From assembly GCA_947475245.1 (NCBI GenBank), contig CANJLW010000010.1, positions 1-64,000 on the forward strand: DNA of 64,000 bases, written 5' to 3'. Origin of the DNA: Acetobacteraceae bacterium. Its GTDB lineage: Bacteria; Pseudomonadota; Alphaproteobacteria; Acetobacterales; Acetobacteraceae. The translations under genes and the position numbers were made by a program. Below, one piece after another: positions 36,921 through 54,817 of the stretch (position 1 is its first letter; each line of letters starts with the position of its first letter). The notes beneath the pieces were generated by a model, which saw only the letters and a list, made by a program, of their open reading frames with translations, was not told the origin of the DNA and did no database searches.

Positions 36921-38303
36921 TCAAACAGTATCCGCCGCTCCGCCCGACTTGGGAAGCTGGGCAAGAAAAATTCCTTCCTCCGCCGGCTCCAGACAGCGGC
37001 AATCCAGCCATAACCGCCCCTGCGCCAACCGTCCGATCACCGGACGCCGCAAACCGCGCAACATCGCGGCCAGCGAATCCAGCCCCGAACCGCCGATCGT
37101 CACCGCCGCGGAAGGCAGCAGATCGACCGGCATGGCGCCCGATCCGATCTGACTGCGGCACATCTCGATACCTATCGGACGATCCGGCCAAAGCCTGGCC
37201 AGTCCGGCGGCCATGCGTTCGGCGGTGGCCTGAATGTCGGCCTGCGCACGCGTCAGCAGGCGCAACGCCGGCAGGCATTCGGCCAACCGATCGGGATCGC
37301 GATACAGACGCAACACCGACTCCAGCGCCGCCAGTCGCCCCTTGTCCAAACGCAGAGCGCGCTTCAGCGGGTTCGCGTTGATTTGCTTCAGCAGATCGGC
37401 CCGCCCGACGATCAAACCGGCCTGCGGACCGCCCAACAGCTTATCGCCGGAAAACGTCACGATGTCCGCGCCCGCCGCCAAAGCCTCTCGCGGGGTGGTT
37501 TCGTGCGGCAAACCCCAACGGTCGAGGTCGATCAGGCTGCCGCTGCCCAGATCGTCGAACAGCGGCAGACCGGCGCCATGCGCGATCGTCGCCAATTGAT
37601 CGGTCGGAACAGCGGCTGTGAAGCCGGTAATCGCGTAATTCGCCTGATGCACCCGCATCAGGGCCGCCATGTCCGGACCGATCGCGCCGATATAGTCCTT
37701 GGGATGCGTGCGATTCGTCGTGCCGACTTCGCGCAGGATCGCGCCGGAACGCGCCATGATGTCGGGCACCCGAAACGCCCCGCCGATCTCGATCAACTCC
37801 CCCCGCGACACCGCCACCTGCTTGCCCAGCGCAAGGGTATTCAGGACCAGCATGACGGCGGCGGCGTTGTTGTTGACGACGGTCGCCGCTTCCGCCCCCG
37901 TCAGTTCGCGCAACAACGGCCCGATATGGTCGTCGCGCTCCCCCCTCCGGCCCGTGTTCAGGTCGAATTCCAACGAGGTCGCCCCCCGCATCGCCGCCGC
38001 CGCAGCGTCCGCCGCTTCGGGCGGCATTGGCGCGCGCCCAAGGTTCGTGTGCAGGACGGTGCCCGTCAGATTGAACACCACCCGCTGCGACGGTTCGGCG
38101 GCGCGCGCCAGACGATCCCCGGCTTCGTCCAACAGGTCCCTGGGCGGTGCGTGAAACAGCCGCTCCGCCCGTCGATCGGCCAGGACCAGGCGCAGGGCGG
38201 CGGCGGTGGCGGTTCGGCCAAACCGCGCGAGCAGAACGGCTGCCTCCGGCATGCGCAGCAGCGCGTCGAGCGAAGGAAGCGGGGGGCTGGAAGGATGGGT
38301 CAT
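36921..38303 (-). CDS. selA: L-seryl-tRNA(Sec) selenium transferase
   Basis: SelA converts seryl-tRNA(Sec) to selenocysteyl-tRNA with selenophosphate and pyridoxal phosphate. Blocks seen include [48 protein letters not shown] and the PLP lysine in [19 protein letters not shown]. At 460 aa it is full length. The TGA stop is followed after one base by tRNA-Sec, so the enzyme and its substrate tRNA share a transcript. SelB and selenophosphate synthetase genes are not in the window. Confidence 0.96.
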
Positions 38304-38344
38304 GTCGGTCGCATGGTAGCGGCGGAACCGAAAGCGACAAGCCG

Positions 38345-38860
38345 ATGACCGTCATTGCCATTCCAGCGCTCGAAACCCAACGGCTGCGCCTGCGCGCGTT
38401 TCGGGCGGAGGATTGGCACGCCTTCGCCGCGATGGAGGCAAGGCCGGAGATGCGTCGCTATCGCGGCGGGAGCCCGTTGACGCCGGAATTGGCCTGGACG
38501 TCGATGCAGACGATCCTGGGCCAATGGGCGCTGCGCGGTTATGGGGCGTTCGCGCTGGAAACCAAGGCGGAGGGGCGGTTCGCGGGGTTCGCCGGCATTC
38601 TGCATCCGGCAGACTGGCCGGAACCCGAGCTGGCCTATTCCATCGACACGCCGCTTTGGGGCGCGGGGCTGGCGGTCGAGGCCGCGACCGCCGCGCGTGA
38701 CTGGGGCTTTGCCGCCTTCGGGTTCGAACGGTTGGTCAGCTACATAATGTCGGACAATCTGCCATCGCGTCGGGTGGCCGCGAAGTTGGGCGCGACGCAG
38801 CAGGGCACGCAGCCCTTACGTGGGATCATGGCGGAGCGCTGGGTTCACCCTCGGCGATAG
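38345..38860 (+). CDS. GNAT-family N-acetyltransferase (RimJ/RimL-like)
   Basis: The protein begins [20 protein letters not shown], has a central [20 protein letters not shown] with the acetyl-CoA loop region, and ends [21 protein letters not shown] then LGA. This is the pattern of the Acetyltransf_3 subfamily that includes ribosomal protein acetyltransferases. The ATG at 38345 is chosen because the domain begins there; upstream in-frame sequence lies antisense within selA. At 171 aa it is complete. It is divergent from selA by 41 bp. The substrate is unknown. Confidence 0.85.
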
Positions 38861-49946: not shown

Positions 49947-50034
49947 GATCGGGGCGGTCGGCTGGCGGCGAGGCGATCTTACGCTATAGGTGGGCCGTAC
50001 TTGCCTGCGTGGCCCAGCCGGTGAAAGCCTCGTT

Positions 50035-51849
50035 ATGAATATGCCTTTGTGTCCCTGCGGCAGCGGATTGCGCACGGTGCGGTGCTGCGGGCTGGAAATC
50101 GGGTCCGTCCCGCCCGCCGAGTCAACGCGCCACCTGGTGCCGCTGGTCGAACGCGCGGTACAGGCGCACCGGCAAGGCGCGCTGGAAACGGCGGAGCGGC
50201 TGTGCCTGGATGTGCTGGAACTCGCGCCCGATCGCCCGGGGGCGCTGATGGTCCTGTACCAAATCCGCCGAACGGAGGGGAAGCTGGCGGCGGCGGAGGC
50301 GTTGATCCGGCGTGTCGTGAACTTCGATCCCAATAACTTCCCCGCGACGAACGAACTCGCGCTGATGCTGATGGGGCGCGGCGCGCTGGCCGATGCCGAA
50401 CATCACGCGCGCAACGCGGTGCGCATCGCGCCGGAAAACCCGCAGGCCCACAATCTGATGGGCATGATCATGACGGAAGCACAGCGACCGCAGATCGGCG
50501 AATATCATTACCGCAAAGTGCTCGACCTCGCCGGCGGGCGCGATCCGATCCTGTTGGCCAATCTGGCCTGGAACCTGAAAAACCAGGGGCGGATGGAAGA
50601 AGCTCGCGCGCTCTACGAAGAATCCGCCGCCGCCGCCCCGGATGTCCGCCAGACCATGCTCGGCTGGGCGCGTCTGGAAGAAGCCGATCGCCACTTCGAC
50701 GCCGCGGCGGAAAAGCTCGATCGGATGGACGCGCAATGGCCGAACGATCCCGGCGTGCTGCTCTCGCGCGCCGTGCTGCTGGGCCGGACAAAGCACTATG
50801 ATCAGGCGCTGGCCGTGCTCGACGATCTCGCCCGGCTCAGCCCCGACGGCAAGCTGGGTCCCAACGAGTTGTCGGAACAGGGACGCCTGCTGGATCAGAT
50901 GGGCCGTTACGACGACGCCTTCGTCGCCTTCGCGGAAAGCAAGCGTCTGGCCGCCGAACTCAGCGGCAATCACTATATGGACGAGGTCGCGGAAAACCTG
51001 ATCGCCCGCGCACGGAGCTTCTTTAGCGCTGGGCGGCTGAGCACCCTGCCCCGCGCCGGCACGCGCCAGGATGTGGCGCAACCGATCTTCGTGCTGGGCT
51101 TCCCGCGCTCCGGCACCACCCTGGTCGAACAGACACTGACCGCGCATCCCAGGATCGCGGCGGGCGACGAATTGCCGCTGATCGCCGATATCACCGGTAT
51201 CATGCCCCGCATGCTGAACAGCCCACTCGGTTACCCGGAAGCATTGGCGGAGTTGTGGATGGGGGATCAGCGCGCCGGATTGGACAATCTGCGCGATTGG
51301 TATCTGCAAAAGGTCGCGCAGATGGGCTTCATCGAAGCGCGGCACGCCTGGTTCACCGACAAGATGCCGCTGAACGAAACCCACATGGGTCTGATCGCGC
51401 TGATGTTCCCGGAAGCGCCGCTGATCCATGTGATCCGCCATCCGCTGGACATCATGGTCTCGGCGATTTCCAACCACTTCACCCACGGCTTCTTCTGCGC
51501 GAACGCGCTGGAAACCGCCGCGCGGCATTACGTGCGGGTGATGGACCTGGTGCAACACTACCGCGCCGAGATGGCGCTGCGCTATCTGCCGGTGCGTTAC
51601 GAGGACATGGTCGACGATCAGGAAAACACCGTGCGCGGCATGTTCGATTTCATCGGCGAATCGTTCGATCCCGGCACGTTGAAATTCCACGAAAACCGCC
51701 GCTATGCGCGCACGGCGAGCTATGCACAGGTGACCGAGCCGCTGTACGCCAGTTCGCGGTTTCGCTACCGCCGCTATCGCGCCCACCTTGAACCGGTGAT
51801 CCCGATCCTGGCACCCGTTATCGAACGGCTGGGCTACACGGTCGATTGA
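50035..51849 (+). CDS. TPR-sulfotransferase with N-terminal SEC-C motif
   Basis: The first residues MNMPLCPCGSGLRTVRCCG form a SEC-C-type zinc motif (C-x-C-x8-C-C). A row of tetratricopeptide repeats (about residues 40-320) is followed by a sulfotransferase domain. Its PAPS-binding PIFVLGFPRSGTTLVEQTL is near residue 345, with further blocks VIRHPLDIMVSAISNHFTHG and YEDMV. The protein is 604 aa. The start at 50035 leaves the SEC-C motif at the extreme N-terminus. The stop overlaps the start of the next TPR gene by one base. It is expected to sulfate a glycan or protein. Confidence 0.9.
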   Translation: MNMPLCPCGSGLRTVRCCGLEIGSVPPAESTRHLVPLVERAVQAHRQGALETAERLCLDVLELAPDRPGALMVLYQIRRTEGKLAAAEALIRRVVNFDPNNFPATNELALMLMGRGALADAEHHARNAVRIAPENPQAHNLMGMIMTEAQRPQIGEYHYRKVLDLAGGRDPILLANLAWNLKNQGRMEEARALYEESAAAAPDVRQTMLGWARLEEADRHFDAAAEKLDRMDAQWPNDPGVLLSRAVLLGRTKHYDQALAVLDDLARLSPDGKLGPNELSEQGRLLDQMGRYDDAFVAFAESKRLAAELSGNHYMDEVAENLIARARSFFSAGRLSTLPRAGTRQDVAQPIFVLGFPRSGTTLVEQTLTAHPRIAAGDELPLIADITGIMPRMLNSPLGYPEALAELWMGDQRAGLDNLRDWYLQKVAQMGFIEARHAWFTDKMPLNETHMGLIALMFPEAPLIHVIRHPLDIMVSAISNHFTHGFFCANALETAARHYVRVMDLVQHYRAEMALRYLPVRYEDMVDDQENTVRGMFDFIGESFDPGTLKFHENRRYARTASYAQVTEPLYASSRFRYRRYRAHLEPVIPILAPVIERLGYTVD

Positions 51850-53270
51850 TGGAACCGGTCCCGCCGCCGCGCGCCTCCCTCGCGACCTCCGTTCCGGTCC
51901 CGCTGGAAGAGGTCTTCACCATCGCGGCGGATTACGAACGGTCCGGCAAGCTGGCGGAAGCCGATCGGCTGCTGGGATACATCCTGACCGTCGCGCCCTT
52001 GCAGGCCGACTCCCTGCATCTGGCCGGCATCGTCGCCTTTCGCCTCGGTCGGCACGCCGAAGCGCTGGAACGGATGGAGCTGGCGATCCGCCACGGCGTC
52101 GATACGCCGCTGTATCTGCGCAACATCTGCGAGGTCTATCGCACCTTGGGGCGCCTGGATGAGGCTTTGGCGACGGCGCGACGGGCGGTGGAGCTATCCC
52201 CGTCGGACCCGCTTTGCCTGCACAACCTGGCAATCATCCACTACGAACGGCTGGAGATCGACGAGAGCATCGCCTGCGCGGAACAGGCGCTGGCCATGAA
52301 TCCCACCCTGCCGGGCGCGCATTTCGAACTGGCGGAGGCGCTGCTGCTGAAGGGCGAAATGGCGCGCGGCTGGGACGAGTACGAATGGCGCTTCCAGATC
52401 GCCGGCGCCGCGCCGCTGATGCCGCCGACCGACAAGCCGCAATGGGACGGGACACCGTTCGACGACGCCACGTTGCTGCTGATTGCCGATCAAGGCTTCG
52501 GCGACGTGATCCAGTTTTGCCGCTACATCCCCTGGGTGGCGGAACGGTGCCCTAACCTCGCCATTGCCTGCGCGCCGGAAGTCGGCTCACTGCTGCGGCA
52601 GTTGCACCCGACCTTGCGGACCTTCGTGAAGTGGGAGGATTGCCCCCCCTATCGCGCTTTCGCCGCGCTGTCGGGCCTGCCGCGCCTGCATGGCACGCGA
52701 CTGCACAACGTCCCCGCGCCGGTGCCGTACCTGCGCGCCGATCTCGCGCGGACCAAACATTGGAAAGACCGGTTGGACCGGCTCGCGCCGCCGACCTATC
52801 GCCGGATCGGCGTCGTCTGGGCCGGGCGACCCACGCATAACAACGACCGCAGGCGATCGACGACCCTGGCGGCCTTCGCGCCGATCGCCGCCCTGCCGCG
52901 CGTCGCGTTGGTGTCGTTGCAGAAAGGCCCTTCGGCCGATCAGGCCGGCCGCTACTACGGGCGCGCGCCGTTGATCAACATCGGCGCGGAGATCAAGGAC
53001 TACGACGACACGATGGCGCTGCTGGAATGCCTCGATGTCGTCGTCACCGTCGATACCTCCGTCGGTCATCTGACGGCGGCGATGGGCAAACCGGCCTGGA
53101 TCATGCTGGCCACCGCGCCCGATTGGCGTTGGCTGCTGGATCGCGCCGACAGCCCCTGGTACCCGACCGTCCGGTTGTTCCGCCAATCCGTCGCGGGACA
53201 ATGGGGCGATGTCATGTCCTGCGTCGCCGGCGCGCTGCGGGAGCGGTTCGAGGCTCCGACAACGGAATGA
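51849..53270 (+). CDS. TPR-glycosyltransferase (GT9-like C-terminus)
   Basis: Residues 20-190 are tetratricopeptide repeats. The C-terminal half has IADQGFGDVIQFCRYIPWVA, RIGVVWAGRPTHNNDRRRS, and VTVDTSVGHLTAAMGKPAW then DWRWLLDRADSPWYPTVRLF. These are the blocks of the TPR-linked GT9/GT41-like family widespread in alphaproteobacteria. The length is 473 aa. The ATG at 51849 overlaps the stop of the sulfotransferase gene, and its own stop overlaps the ligase-like gene by ATGA. The acceptor may be a protein or surface glycan. Confidence 0.87.
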   Translation: MEPVPPPRASLATSVPVPLEEVFTIAADYERSGKLAEADRLLGYILTVAPLQADSLHLAGIVAFRLGRHAEALERMELAIRHGVDTPLYLRNICEVYRTLGRLDEALATARRAVELSPSDPLCLHNLAIIHYERLEIDESIACAEQALAMNPTLPGAHFELAEALLLKGEMARGWDEYEWRFQIAGAAPLMPPTDKPQWDGTPFDDATLLLIADQGFGDVIQFCRYIPWVAERCPNLAIACAPEVGSLLRQLHPTLRTFVKWEDCPPYRAFAALSGLPRLHGTRLHNVPAPVPYLRADLARTKHWKDRLDRLAPPTYRRIGVVWAGRPTHNNDRRRSTTLAAFAPIAALPRVALVSLQKGPSADQAGRYYGRAPLINIGAEIKDYDDTMALLECLDVVVTVDTSVGHLTAAMGKPAWIMLATAPDWRWLLDRADSPWYPTVRLFRQSVAGQWGDVMSCVAGALRERFEAPTTE

Positions 53271-54817
53271 TCGCCTTCGCCGGCCTGCTTGAACGCCTGG
53301 CGTTCACCCAGGCGGCCGACACGCGTTGCACCCTGCTGCGCCACTATCTGCAAACCCGACCGGACCCGGAACGCGGCCTGGCGCTCGCTCTGCTGGTCGG
53401 CGGTTTGACGCTGCCGGGCGTGAAACCGTCGGTGTTGCGGACATTGATCGCCGAACGGACCGACCCGGTACTCTTCGATCTGTCGCGCGAGCACGTCGGG
53501 GACCTCTCCGAAACAATCGCCTTGCTGTGGCCGACAGTCGCCGACCGGGCCGTTCCGACGCTCGTCGAAGTGGTCGAGGCAACATCTGAGGCATCCGGTG
53601 CGGCGCTGTCCGGGCTTCTGGCGGGTTGGCTGGACCGATCCCCCGATCCGACGGTGCGCCTGACGCTTCTGAAACTCCTGGGCGGCGGCCTGAAGCGGCC
53701 GGTATCGATCGCGACCGCGCAGGCCGCGCTCGCCGCGATGGGGGAGGTCGCGATCGCCGACGTCGCGGCGGTGTGGCTGCGGCAAACCCCGCCCTATACG
53801 CCCCTGTTCGATTGGCTGGATCGACGCGCACCCCGTCCGGACACAACCGACGCGCCGATCTTCCTCCCCCCGATGTCCGCCGCCCCCCTGGACGACCCGA
53901 CCGCCTTGCACCCACCGGATTGGCGGGCGGAATGGCAGTGGGACGGCGTGCGCGTGCAACTGGTCGCGACGGCAACCGATCGCCGGGTCTATGCGCGCGA
54001 CGGGGAGGACCTGACCGAGCTTTTGCCCGAAATCGTCGATGCAATGACATTCCAAGGCGTCTTGGACGGCATGCTGCTGGCGATGCGCGACGGTACTCCG
54101 GCGCCGTTCGCCGCTTTGGCGCATCGGCTTGGCCGTCCATCTGCATCGACGACGGTTCGACGCGCGCAACCCATCGGAATCCGCTTGTTCGATCTGCTGA
54201 TCGACGGGACGGAAGACCTCCGCGCCCTTACCTTCGATACAAGGCGCGTTCGGCTGGAAGCCTGGCATGCCCGCATATTGCCCGCCGGCATGGACCTGTC
54301 GCCGCTGGTCCCGTTTTCCTCCGTCGCGGCGTTGCTGGCGCTGCGCGGAGGCATCGCATCGGCAACGATCAGGGGACTGATCCTGAAGCGGGGCGACAGC
54401 CGCTACACGCCGGACGACGAAGGCGCGGCATCCTGGCTCAGTTGGCGGCGCCCGCCGAACAGCCTCGATGCGGTGCTGATGTATGTCGAGCGGGAACGCA
54501 GCCTGACATTCGGAGTCTGGTCGGGCGACGCACTGCTGCCGATCGGCAAGGTCGCGCTGACGCCCGCGTTGGCGACGTTGGACCGCTGGGCGCGCGCGCA
54601 TACCGTGGCGCGCTTCGGACCCGTGCGCGAGGTCGAAAAATCGCTTGTGCTGACGATCGCCTTCGACTCCGCGCAACGATCCGCGCGTCACAAGGCGGGC
54701 GTGACCTTACGCGGCGCGCGGATCGTCGGCGTCCGCGACGACGTCACGGCGCAATCCGCCGATCGGCTGGAAACCTTACTGTCCCTGGCAGACCAAGGCG
54801 CCCCGCCAATCGCTTAA
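53267..54817 (+). CDS. catalytically degenerate ATP-dependent DNA ligase homologue (pseudoenzyme)
   Basis: The N-terminal domain ([38 protein letters not shown]), the nucleotidyltransferase core and the OB domain ([32 protein letters not shown]) match bacterial ATP-dependent DNA ligases (LigB/C/Lhr-associated type). The active site, however, has lost key residues: motif I K is Q224 ([12 protein letters not shown]), the DGEL Glu is M269, the motif IV Glu is R369 (RGLILK) and the motif V W-K-W-K is L-S-W-R (391-394). The frame is intact at 516 aa. It is the third of three overlapping genes. It probably cannot adenylate itself and may have a structural or non-ligase role. Confidence 0.85.

Follow-up and report, generated by a model that had tools for sequence, protein, structure and literature searches.

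The Lhr-Lig-Exo-Pde operon, that of a bacterial helicase-ligase-exonuclease-phosphoesterase repair module, was described by Ejaz and Shuman in 2018, as cited in PMC10140301, and the role of the module is stated as unknown in the excerpt of PMC10140301 used here. The same excerpt reports exonuclease-type modules fused to the ligase, LigB, in Opitutus terrae and in a Dry Valley metagenome (RMMBL-ligase). These fusions suggest that a single physical unit can contain both exonuclease and LigB, and make a complex of the two plausible. A second system for comparison is DNA ligase IV of eukaryotic NHEJ, whose DBD binds Artemis (PMC9956705). Inactive ligase IV promotes joining by a different ligase (PMC9638927, PMC3694833), and the enzyme plays a structural part in end joining (PMC10858965), all according to excerpts of these papers.

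Here we describe a LigB relative encoded in the window, by which we mean the whole 64,000-nucleotide stretch of Acetobacteraceae DNA that was analysed. Genomes of the comparison set carry G numbers, G000 being the host genome of the window; C denotes a contig and L a locus. Judged from its sequence, the window protein is a LigB-type ligase (TIGR04120) of the Lhr-Lig-Exo-Pde module, with homology to LigB over its whole length, the same three-domain order and the same genome partners. Unlike LigB, it lacks the catalytic residues, its gene lies away from those of its partners, and the nucleotidyltransferase (NTase, adenylation) domain is shrunken or missing in its relatives. The resemblance to ligase IV-Artemis lies in the shared fold class of the ligase N-terminal domain, in a partner that is a metallo-beta-lactamase/beta-CASP nuclease, and in the catalysis-independent function that ligase IV shows when mutated; however, ligase IV is naturally active, whereas the inactivity described here is natural and repeated, and the interaction is proposed. 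The exonuclease-LigB fusions differ in that the separately expressed ligase module of the fusion is active in the excerpt of PMC10140301, whereas here the two proteins are separate and the ligase is dead.

Domains and catalytic positions of the window protein

The window protein scores 483 bits against the model for the "cisplatin damage response ATP-dependent DNA ligase" (TIGR04120; cut-off 400), while several relatives from the same genus fall below this cut-off. It also passes the Pfam model DNA_ligase_A_M (55.5 bits, cut-off 26.2), and its match to DNA_ligase_A_C is sub-threshold (14.5 bits, cut-off 27.5). The gene, its two upstream neighbours and the features of the protein are as follows, all on the forward strand.

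49990..51849, +, TPR-sulfotransferase gene, preceding the TPR-glycosyltransferase gene
51846..53270, +, TPR protein, matching glycosyltransferase family 9 weakly; overlap with the start of the pseudo-ligase gene is ATGA
53267..54817, +, pseudo-ligase gene, 516 aa in an open frame; TIGR04120 relative without the catalytic residues
53267..53830, +, N-terminal helical domain, about residues 1-188; best-kept part across the pseudo-ligases, all-helical in the model
53498..53530, +, 11-residue turn and helix, kept in nearly all pseudo-ligases (alignment)
53831..54463, +, NTase domain, about residues 189-399; fold kept in G000, shrunken or deleted in relatives
53936..53938, +, Q224, replacing the motif I lysine (alignment)
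54071..54073, +, M269, replacing the motif III glutamate of DGEL (alignment)
54371..54373, +, R369, replacing the motif IV glutamate (alignment)
54437..54448, +, LSWR (L391-S-W-R394), replacing the motif V WKWK, with both lysines lost (alignment)
54464..54814, +, OB domain, about residues 400-516; core retained, with a shortened RGHGKRSSFYSD loop
54710..54742, +, motif VI remnant of 11 residues (alignment)

The names I, III, IV, V and VI are those that we take to belong to the aligned positions. A first-pass annotation made from the DNA alone had named Q224, M269, R369 and L391-S392-W393-R394 as the replacements, and the alignment places every one of them exactly there; the ATGA overlap with the upstream TPR-glycosyltransferase gene that it reported is likewise present. 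The alignment adds the loss of motif VI (RFPRxxRIRxDK) and of most of the conserved OB loop RGHGKRSSFYSD, while Asp226, Gly227 and Arg229, which follow the motif I lysine position, are retained. With the catalytic residues of motifs I, III, IV, V and VI absent, the protein is predicted to be a relative rather than a working member of TIGR04120. A gene annotated as a TIGR04120 DNA ligase by family score need not ligate, as G000 passes the cut-off.

An AlphaFold2 model built with 16 aligned sequences reached a mean pLDDT of 86.2 and a pTM of 0.74. When this model was used as a Foldseek query, archaeal ligases ranked first (E 2e-33, query TM-score about 0.5); next came human ligase 1 bound to nicked DNA, with a TM-score of up to 0.73, and ligase IV. 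A search for a second, intact copy returned no other PF01068 match in the G000 genome, which is 99% complete; ligase D therefore does not account for the loss in this genome. The NAD-dependent LigA is present in the host, where the search revealed no further ATP-dependent ligase gene.

Pseudo-ligases among relatives and their origins

The 162 loci in the comparison yielded 121 distinct ligase proteins, which were scored at six positions (the motif I lysine and arginine, the motif III and IV glutamates and the two motif V lysines). All six were canonical in 109 of the 121, several or all were degenerate in 11, the window protein included, and one was a contig fragment. Later finds in G368 and G411 brought the pseudo-ligases to 13: that of G000, those of seven relatives from its genus, and those of G355, G338, G126, G368 and G411, which belong to other genera and families of Alphaproteobacteria. 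Pseudo-ligase genomes number at least five in an order sample of 250 and at least four in a class sample of 222, with G000 in both. An alignment scan that kept the best 80 of 586 relatives says nothing on prevalence, and a single-protein scan of genome contigs found no relative. As far as our searches can tell, no natural bacterial pseudo-DNA-ligase has been reported in the open-access titles and abstract openings covered, subscription literature being outside their scope; within the open-access literature searched, and to the same extent, the window gene is a new variant of a known repair module.

The particular Q/M/R/S pattern of the window protein is not conserved in its orthologues; what recurs is the loss of the chemistry, by differing substitutions or by deletion. 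The G126 protein retains the lysine and has lost the WDG that follows it and motifs III, V and VI, some degenerate members of the genus retain one motif V lysine, and G368 has DGE at the place of motif III. The motif I arginine is present wherever there is an NTase domain among the 121 proteins. In G338 this domain is deleted, leaving 281 aa. The ligase relative in G411 (L255) is extremely degenerate and adjoins the helicase, exonuclease and phosphoesterase genes; its NTase region is barely alignable and could have been replaced rather than eroded.

Within the genus, 30 of 33 genomes have a ligase match, and the match is degenerate in eight of them (G000 and seven of the 32 others). Of the remaining 22 matches, 21 have the canonical residue at all six positions, and the one in G002, truncated by a contig end, has canonical motifs. 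No ligase match was found in G007 (99% complete), G014 (64%) or G027 (80%). The pseudo-ligases of G001, G003, G009, G016 and G028 have 434-440 aa, about 80 fewer than that of G000, with most of the difference in the NTase domain; those of G011 and G026 have 304 aa and no NTase domain at all, the N-terminal domain being joined directly to the OB domain. The ligase and exonuclease genes of G004 (C75; L020, L168) adjoin, unlike those of the other genus members examined, and group with those of Xanthobacteraceae and their kin, which we attribute to horizontal transfer or to contamination, the genome being listed as 5% contaminated.

Since Q or another residue replaces the lysine while the fold is predicted to be intact, a protein with a full NTase fold, such as that of the window, could still bind nucleotide and carry out a lysine-independent reaction or sensing step. 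Asp226 and Arg229 remain in the window protein, and its NTase domain is no more diverged from that of the intact G025 ligase (56% identity) than are the flanking domains (52% and 56%). However, motifs III-VI are gone as well, and G011, G026 and G338 delete the NTase domain and keep the rest, so we consider altered chemistry the least probable of the readings weighed here.

How often the chemistry was lost depends on the tree consulted. In the ligase tree, from which fragments were left out, all 11 pseudo-ligases then found group together (SH-aLRT 96); we discount this group as long-branch attraction, which is not proven. The exonuclease tree (92 rows, with proteins under 250 aa and duplicates left out) shows four pseudo-ligase lineages and four changes, of which at least two are forced by starred branches, and none of 200 bootstrap trees has just one change. 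The helicase tree (41 rows, after removal of partial helicases, including that of G026, and of seven duplicates or close neighbours) gives six changes, at least five of them forced. In AU tests, which were two-tree tests on short searches, a single group was rejected with the helicase for 12 rows (p 2e-96) and for nine Acetobacteraceae rows (p 0.0016); it was not rejected for the seven genus rows, where the constrained tree scored better (p 0.64), nor with the exonuclease, on a quick tree with 13 pseudo-ligase rows (p 0.34). A single origin is thus rejected by the helicase tree but not by the exonuclease-tree test. In the exonuclease tree G000 itself joins the pseudo-ligases of its genus, and the quick helicase tree places it next to the intact ones. 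Synteny points to a conversion within the genus, as G032 carries a canonical ligase in the same gene order as the window. We estimate that the conversion was recurrent, perhaps happening three to six times.

Selection on the retained domains

Selection was assessed by domain from NG86 counts, as dN/dS ratios of six pseudo-ligase pairs of the genus and seven intact pairs. The pseudo-ligase pairs gave 0.17-0.29 for the N-terminal domain, 0.17-0.36 for the OB domain and 0.16-0.34 for the NTase remnant (five pairs), against 0.09-0.19, 0.03-0.12 and 0.07-0.18 for the N-terminal, OB and NTase domains of the intact pairs. Third codon positions vary most in every one of these comparisons except the eight-codon NTase stub of G011/G026. 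By these codon comparisons, purifying selection on the genus pseudo-ligases is relaxed but real. G000 is comparable only to distant relatives, near saturation (pS about 0.6-0.7); between its NTase domain and that of G001, first, second and third positions differ at 0.36, 0.39 and 0.57, a weak signal.

These ratios, higher than those of the intact pairs, could also be read as those of a gene in decay whose catalysis has gone and whose frame is still unbroken. The ligase does evolve fast, with 53% identity between the window and G032 where the two neighbouring genes are 79-81% identical; it has been lost from G007, G027 and other genomes, and broken remnants of it occur in G120 and G528. The G120 remnant (C10:289003-289560, L127) is a 201-aa frame in which a piece of the ligase-associated helicase is fused to the OB end of the ligase, as if the intervening genes had been deleted. 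Yet the frame is open in all 13 pseudo-ligases, those of the seven degenerate genus relatives included, although divergence is deep and the in-frame deletions are large, and it is the third positions that differ most in the genus pairs, which makes decay very unlikely. A sequencing error, or a recent frameshift or decay, is ruled out, as degenerate versions occur in relatives. The proposal in the first-pass annotation that the gene is under selection for another role gains support from the same observations, since seven relatives in the genus and five outside it keep degenerate open frames and third positions change most within the genus.

What is retained was examined at the alignment columns in which at least 97% of 107 intact ligases share one residue (excluding L141, L136 and L137, the last being intact but very divergent), with residues numbered as in G025. 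On average the 13 pseudo-ligases keep 70% of the 42 N-terminal columns, 44% of the 53 NTase columns and 46% of the 58 OB columns. The residues kept in at least 12 of the 13 are L7, L11, D66, L69, G78, D79, E82, T83, L86, W88, L123, D124, R131, P191, Y407, L432, P434, T458, G463, V465, R486 and G490, and thus take in the N-terminal GDxxET turn. Lost in at least 12 of the 13 are, among others, K226, D228, E271, E371, K395, the OB loop positions, F495, P496, R500 and K505, together with R17, D75, G145 and R149 in the N-terminal domain. The second conserved N-terminal loop (LRVGxS) is therefore eroded, G145 and R149 each being lost in 12 of the 13. The loop around G145 aligns with the archaeal ligases. 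Its equivalent in ligase 1 presumably contacts DNA; if so, canonical clamping of DNA would be at least weakened in the pseudo-ligases.

This erosion bears on the suggestion, made when the gene was first noticed, that it had been kept for nick or end binding. A dead ligase could act as a stand-alone DNA-binding protein that recognises nicks or ends through its N-terminal and OB domains, protecting or marking them, with no part as a partner of the exonuclease. In its favour, ligases of this fold have been solved on nicked DNA, and the cores of both domains are kept, as is the GDxxET turn. But the loss of G145, R149 and the OB positions in at least 12 of the 13 does not bear the suggestion out, and such a binder would leave unexplained why the exonuclease is missing where the ligase is missing, as described below. 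We consider it unlikely.

Module partners, candidate role and gene neighbourhood

In G000 the ligase gene lies on C10, outside the cluster of its partners on C5, where TIGR04123 (119007-119633), TIGR04121 (119723-122089) and TIGR04122 (126381-127352) all score over the cut-off and together account for the helicase, exonuclease and phosphoesterase. In Caulobacter, which served as a control, the module families were matched too. A motif-intact exonuclease and a helicase were found with all 13 pseudo-ligases and a phosphoesterase with 12. The exonuclease is over the cut-off in all eight pseudo-ligase genomes of the genus; the seven relatives of G000 also have the phosphoesterase over the cut-off and the helicase, which in G026 is split over two contigs. 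The other five genomes have the helicase and exonuclease, and four of them the phosphoesterase, which was not found within the stretch around the locus in G338. In these five (G355, G338, G126, G368 and G411) the pseudo-ligase gene directly adjoins the exonuclease gene, while in G000 and the genus pseudo-ligase members it does not.

The exonuclease is a predicted metallo-beta-lactamase/beta-CASP protein, over the cut-off for Pfam Lactamase_B_2 and below it for RMMBL, with CPSF73, RNase and DCLRE1A among its solved relatives. Its metal-site motifs (TH[GA]HxDHA, GD[YF]KR, SDHADW and THG) are intact by eye in all 13 cases, and the helicase matches PTGGGKT and DExH in all 12 pseudo-ligase genomes tested (G026 was left out). 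LigA (TIGR00575) is over the cut-off in all 14 genomes checked, namely eight of the genus, G126, G355, G338, G007, G027 and G052.

In a hand tally of 145 genomes, all nine with a pseudo-ligase and 75 of the 77 with an intact-type ligase had an exonuclease over the cut-off, the two exceptions, G002 and G023, having sub-threshold pieces. Among the 59 genomes with no ligase or a remnant, 58 were without it, and the one in which it was over the cut-off was the 64%-complete G014. Fisher's test of pseudo-ligase against no-ligase genomes gave 2e-10, a value uncorrected for kinship. G007 and G027 lack both ligase and exonuclease, yet retain the helicase and phosphoesterase. With the ligase remnants, no exonuclease match was found genome-wide in G120 or in the 15 kb around the remnant in G528, and in neither was there a helicase over the cut-off.

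Taking ligase IV and Artemis as an analogy, we lean towards the reading that the window gene encodes a pseudo-ligase whose part beside the metallo-beta-lactamase exonuclease is structural and not catalytic, with sealing done by LigA. The ligase would have been kept after losing its adenylation and nick-sealing chemistry, the exonuclease needing its body and not its chemistry. The N-terminal and OB domains would be the docking site of the exonuclease, and perhaps of Lhr, and would position the exonuclease on DNA; once trimming is done, the NAD-dependent LigA would seal the remaining nick. Intact LigB ligases may carry the same scaffold role beside catalysis, so that the chemistry could be lost while the gene stayed. 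The loss of the catalytic residues, the purifying selection in the genus, the erosion of the NTase domain to complete deletion and the co-occurrence with a motif-intact exonuclease are in keeping with this reading; against it, the second N-terminal loop is eroded, so placement on DNA may be lost, the gene lies apart from the exonuclease gene in G000 and its genus, no phosphoesterase turned up in the G338 stretch, and the selection signal for G000 itself is weak.

More broadly, and more tentatively, LigB of the Lhr-Lig-Exo-Pde module could have a catalysis-independent architectural role as a partner needed by the exonuclease, a bacterial counterpart of ligase IV-Artemis from which Alphaproteobacteria repeatedly made a pure scaffold, down to a minimal N-terminal/OB adaptor of about 280-300 residues; we put this at just short of an even chance. 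Natural variants that retain the other module members after losing ligation chemistry suggest that the module can do without sealing by this ligase, but not without the ligase body. The proteins that lack the NTase domain, of 304 aa in G011 and G026 and of 281 aa in G338, offer minimal baits and separation-of-function constructs that already exist in nature.

The sulfotransferase and glycosyltransferase genes precede the ligase in five of the seven pseudo-ligase relatives of the genus; the pair is absent from the 10 kb contig of G011, and the G026 contig is only 3.1 kb long. Among eight widely fetched intact-ligase loci, that of G032 alone has the sulfotransferase-glycosyltransferase-ligase order. 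With a canonical ligase in this same arrangement, a functional link of the ligase to the sulfotransferase and glycosyltransferase was judged unlikely, and what the first-pass annotation had called an odd neighbourhood for DNA repair is probably incidental, the other genes of the module being on another contig. That annotation had also held that its reading would fall if canonical orthologues shared the locus and this copy were a sequencing error or a recently decaying gene: the canonical orthologue does exist, in G032, but error and recent decay are contradicted by the degenerate relatives.

TPR-glycosyltransferase paralogues adjoin the exonuclease gene in G000, G005 and G025 (L046, 10119-12005 and 12883-14310; L047; L050), so both halves of the split module have such neighbours. 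In the window, a SelA (selenocysteine synthase) gene (36924-38351, - strand) is separated from the sulfotransferase gene by about 11 kb of catabolic-type genes; a SelA homologue adjoins the pseudo-ligase in G011 and lies upstream of the sulfotransferase in several relatives. Finally, a record labelled Nitrosovibrio sp. Nv4 (MAG; L178, CALQHT020000087.1) carries an Acetobacteraceae-type sulfotransferase-glycosyltransferase-ligase locus, and its label looks wrong.
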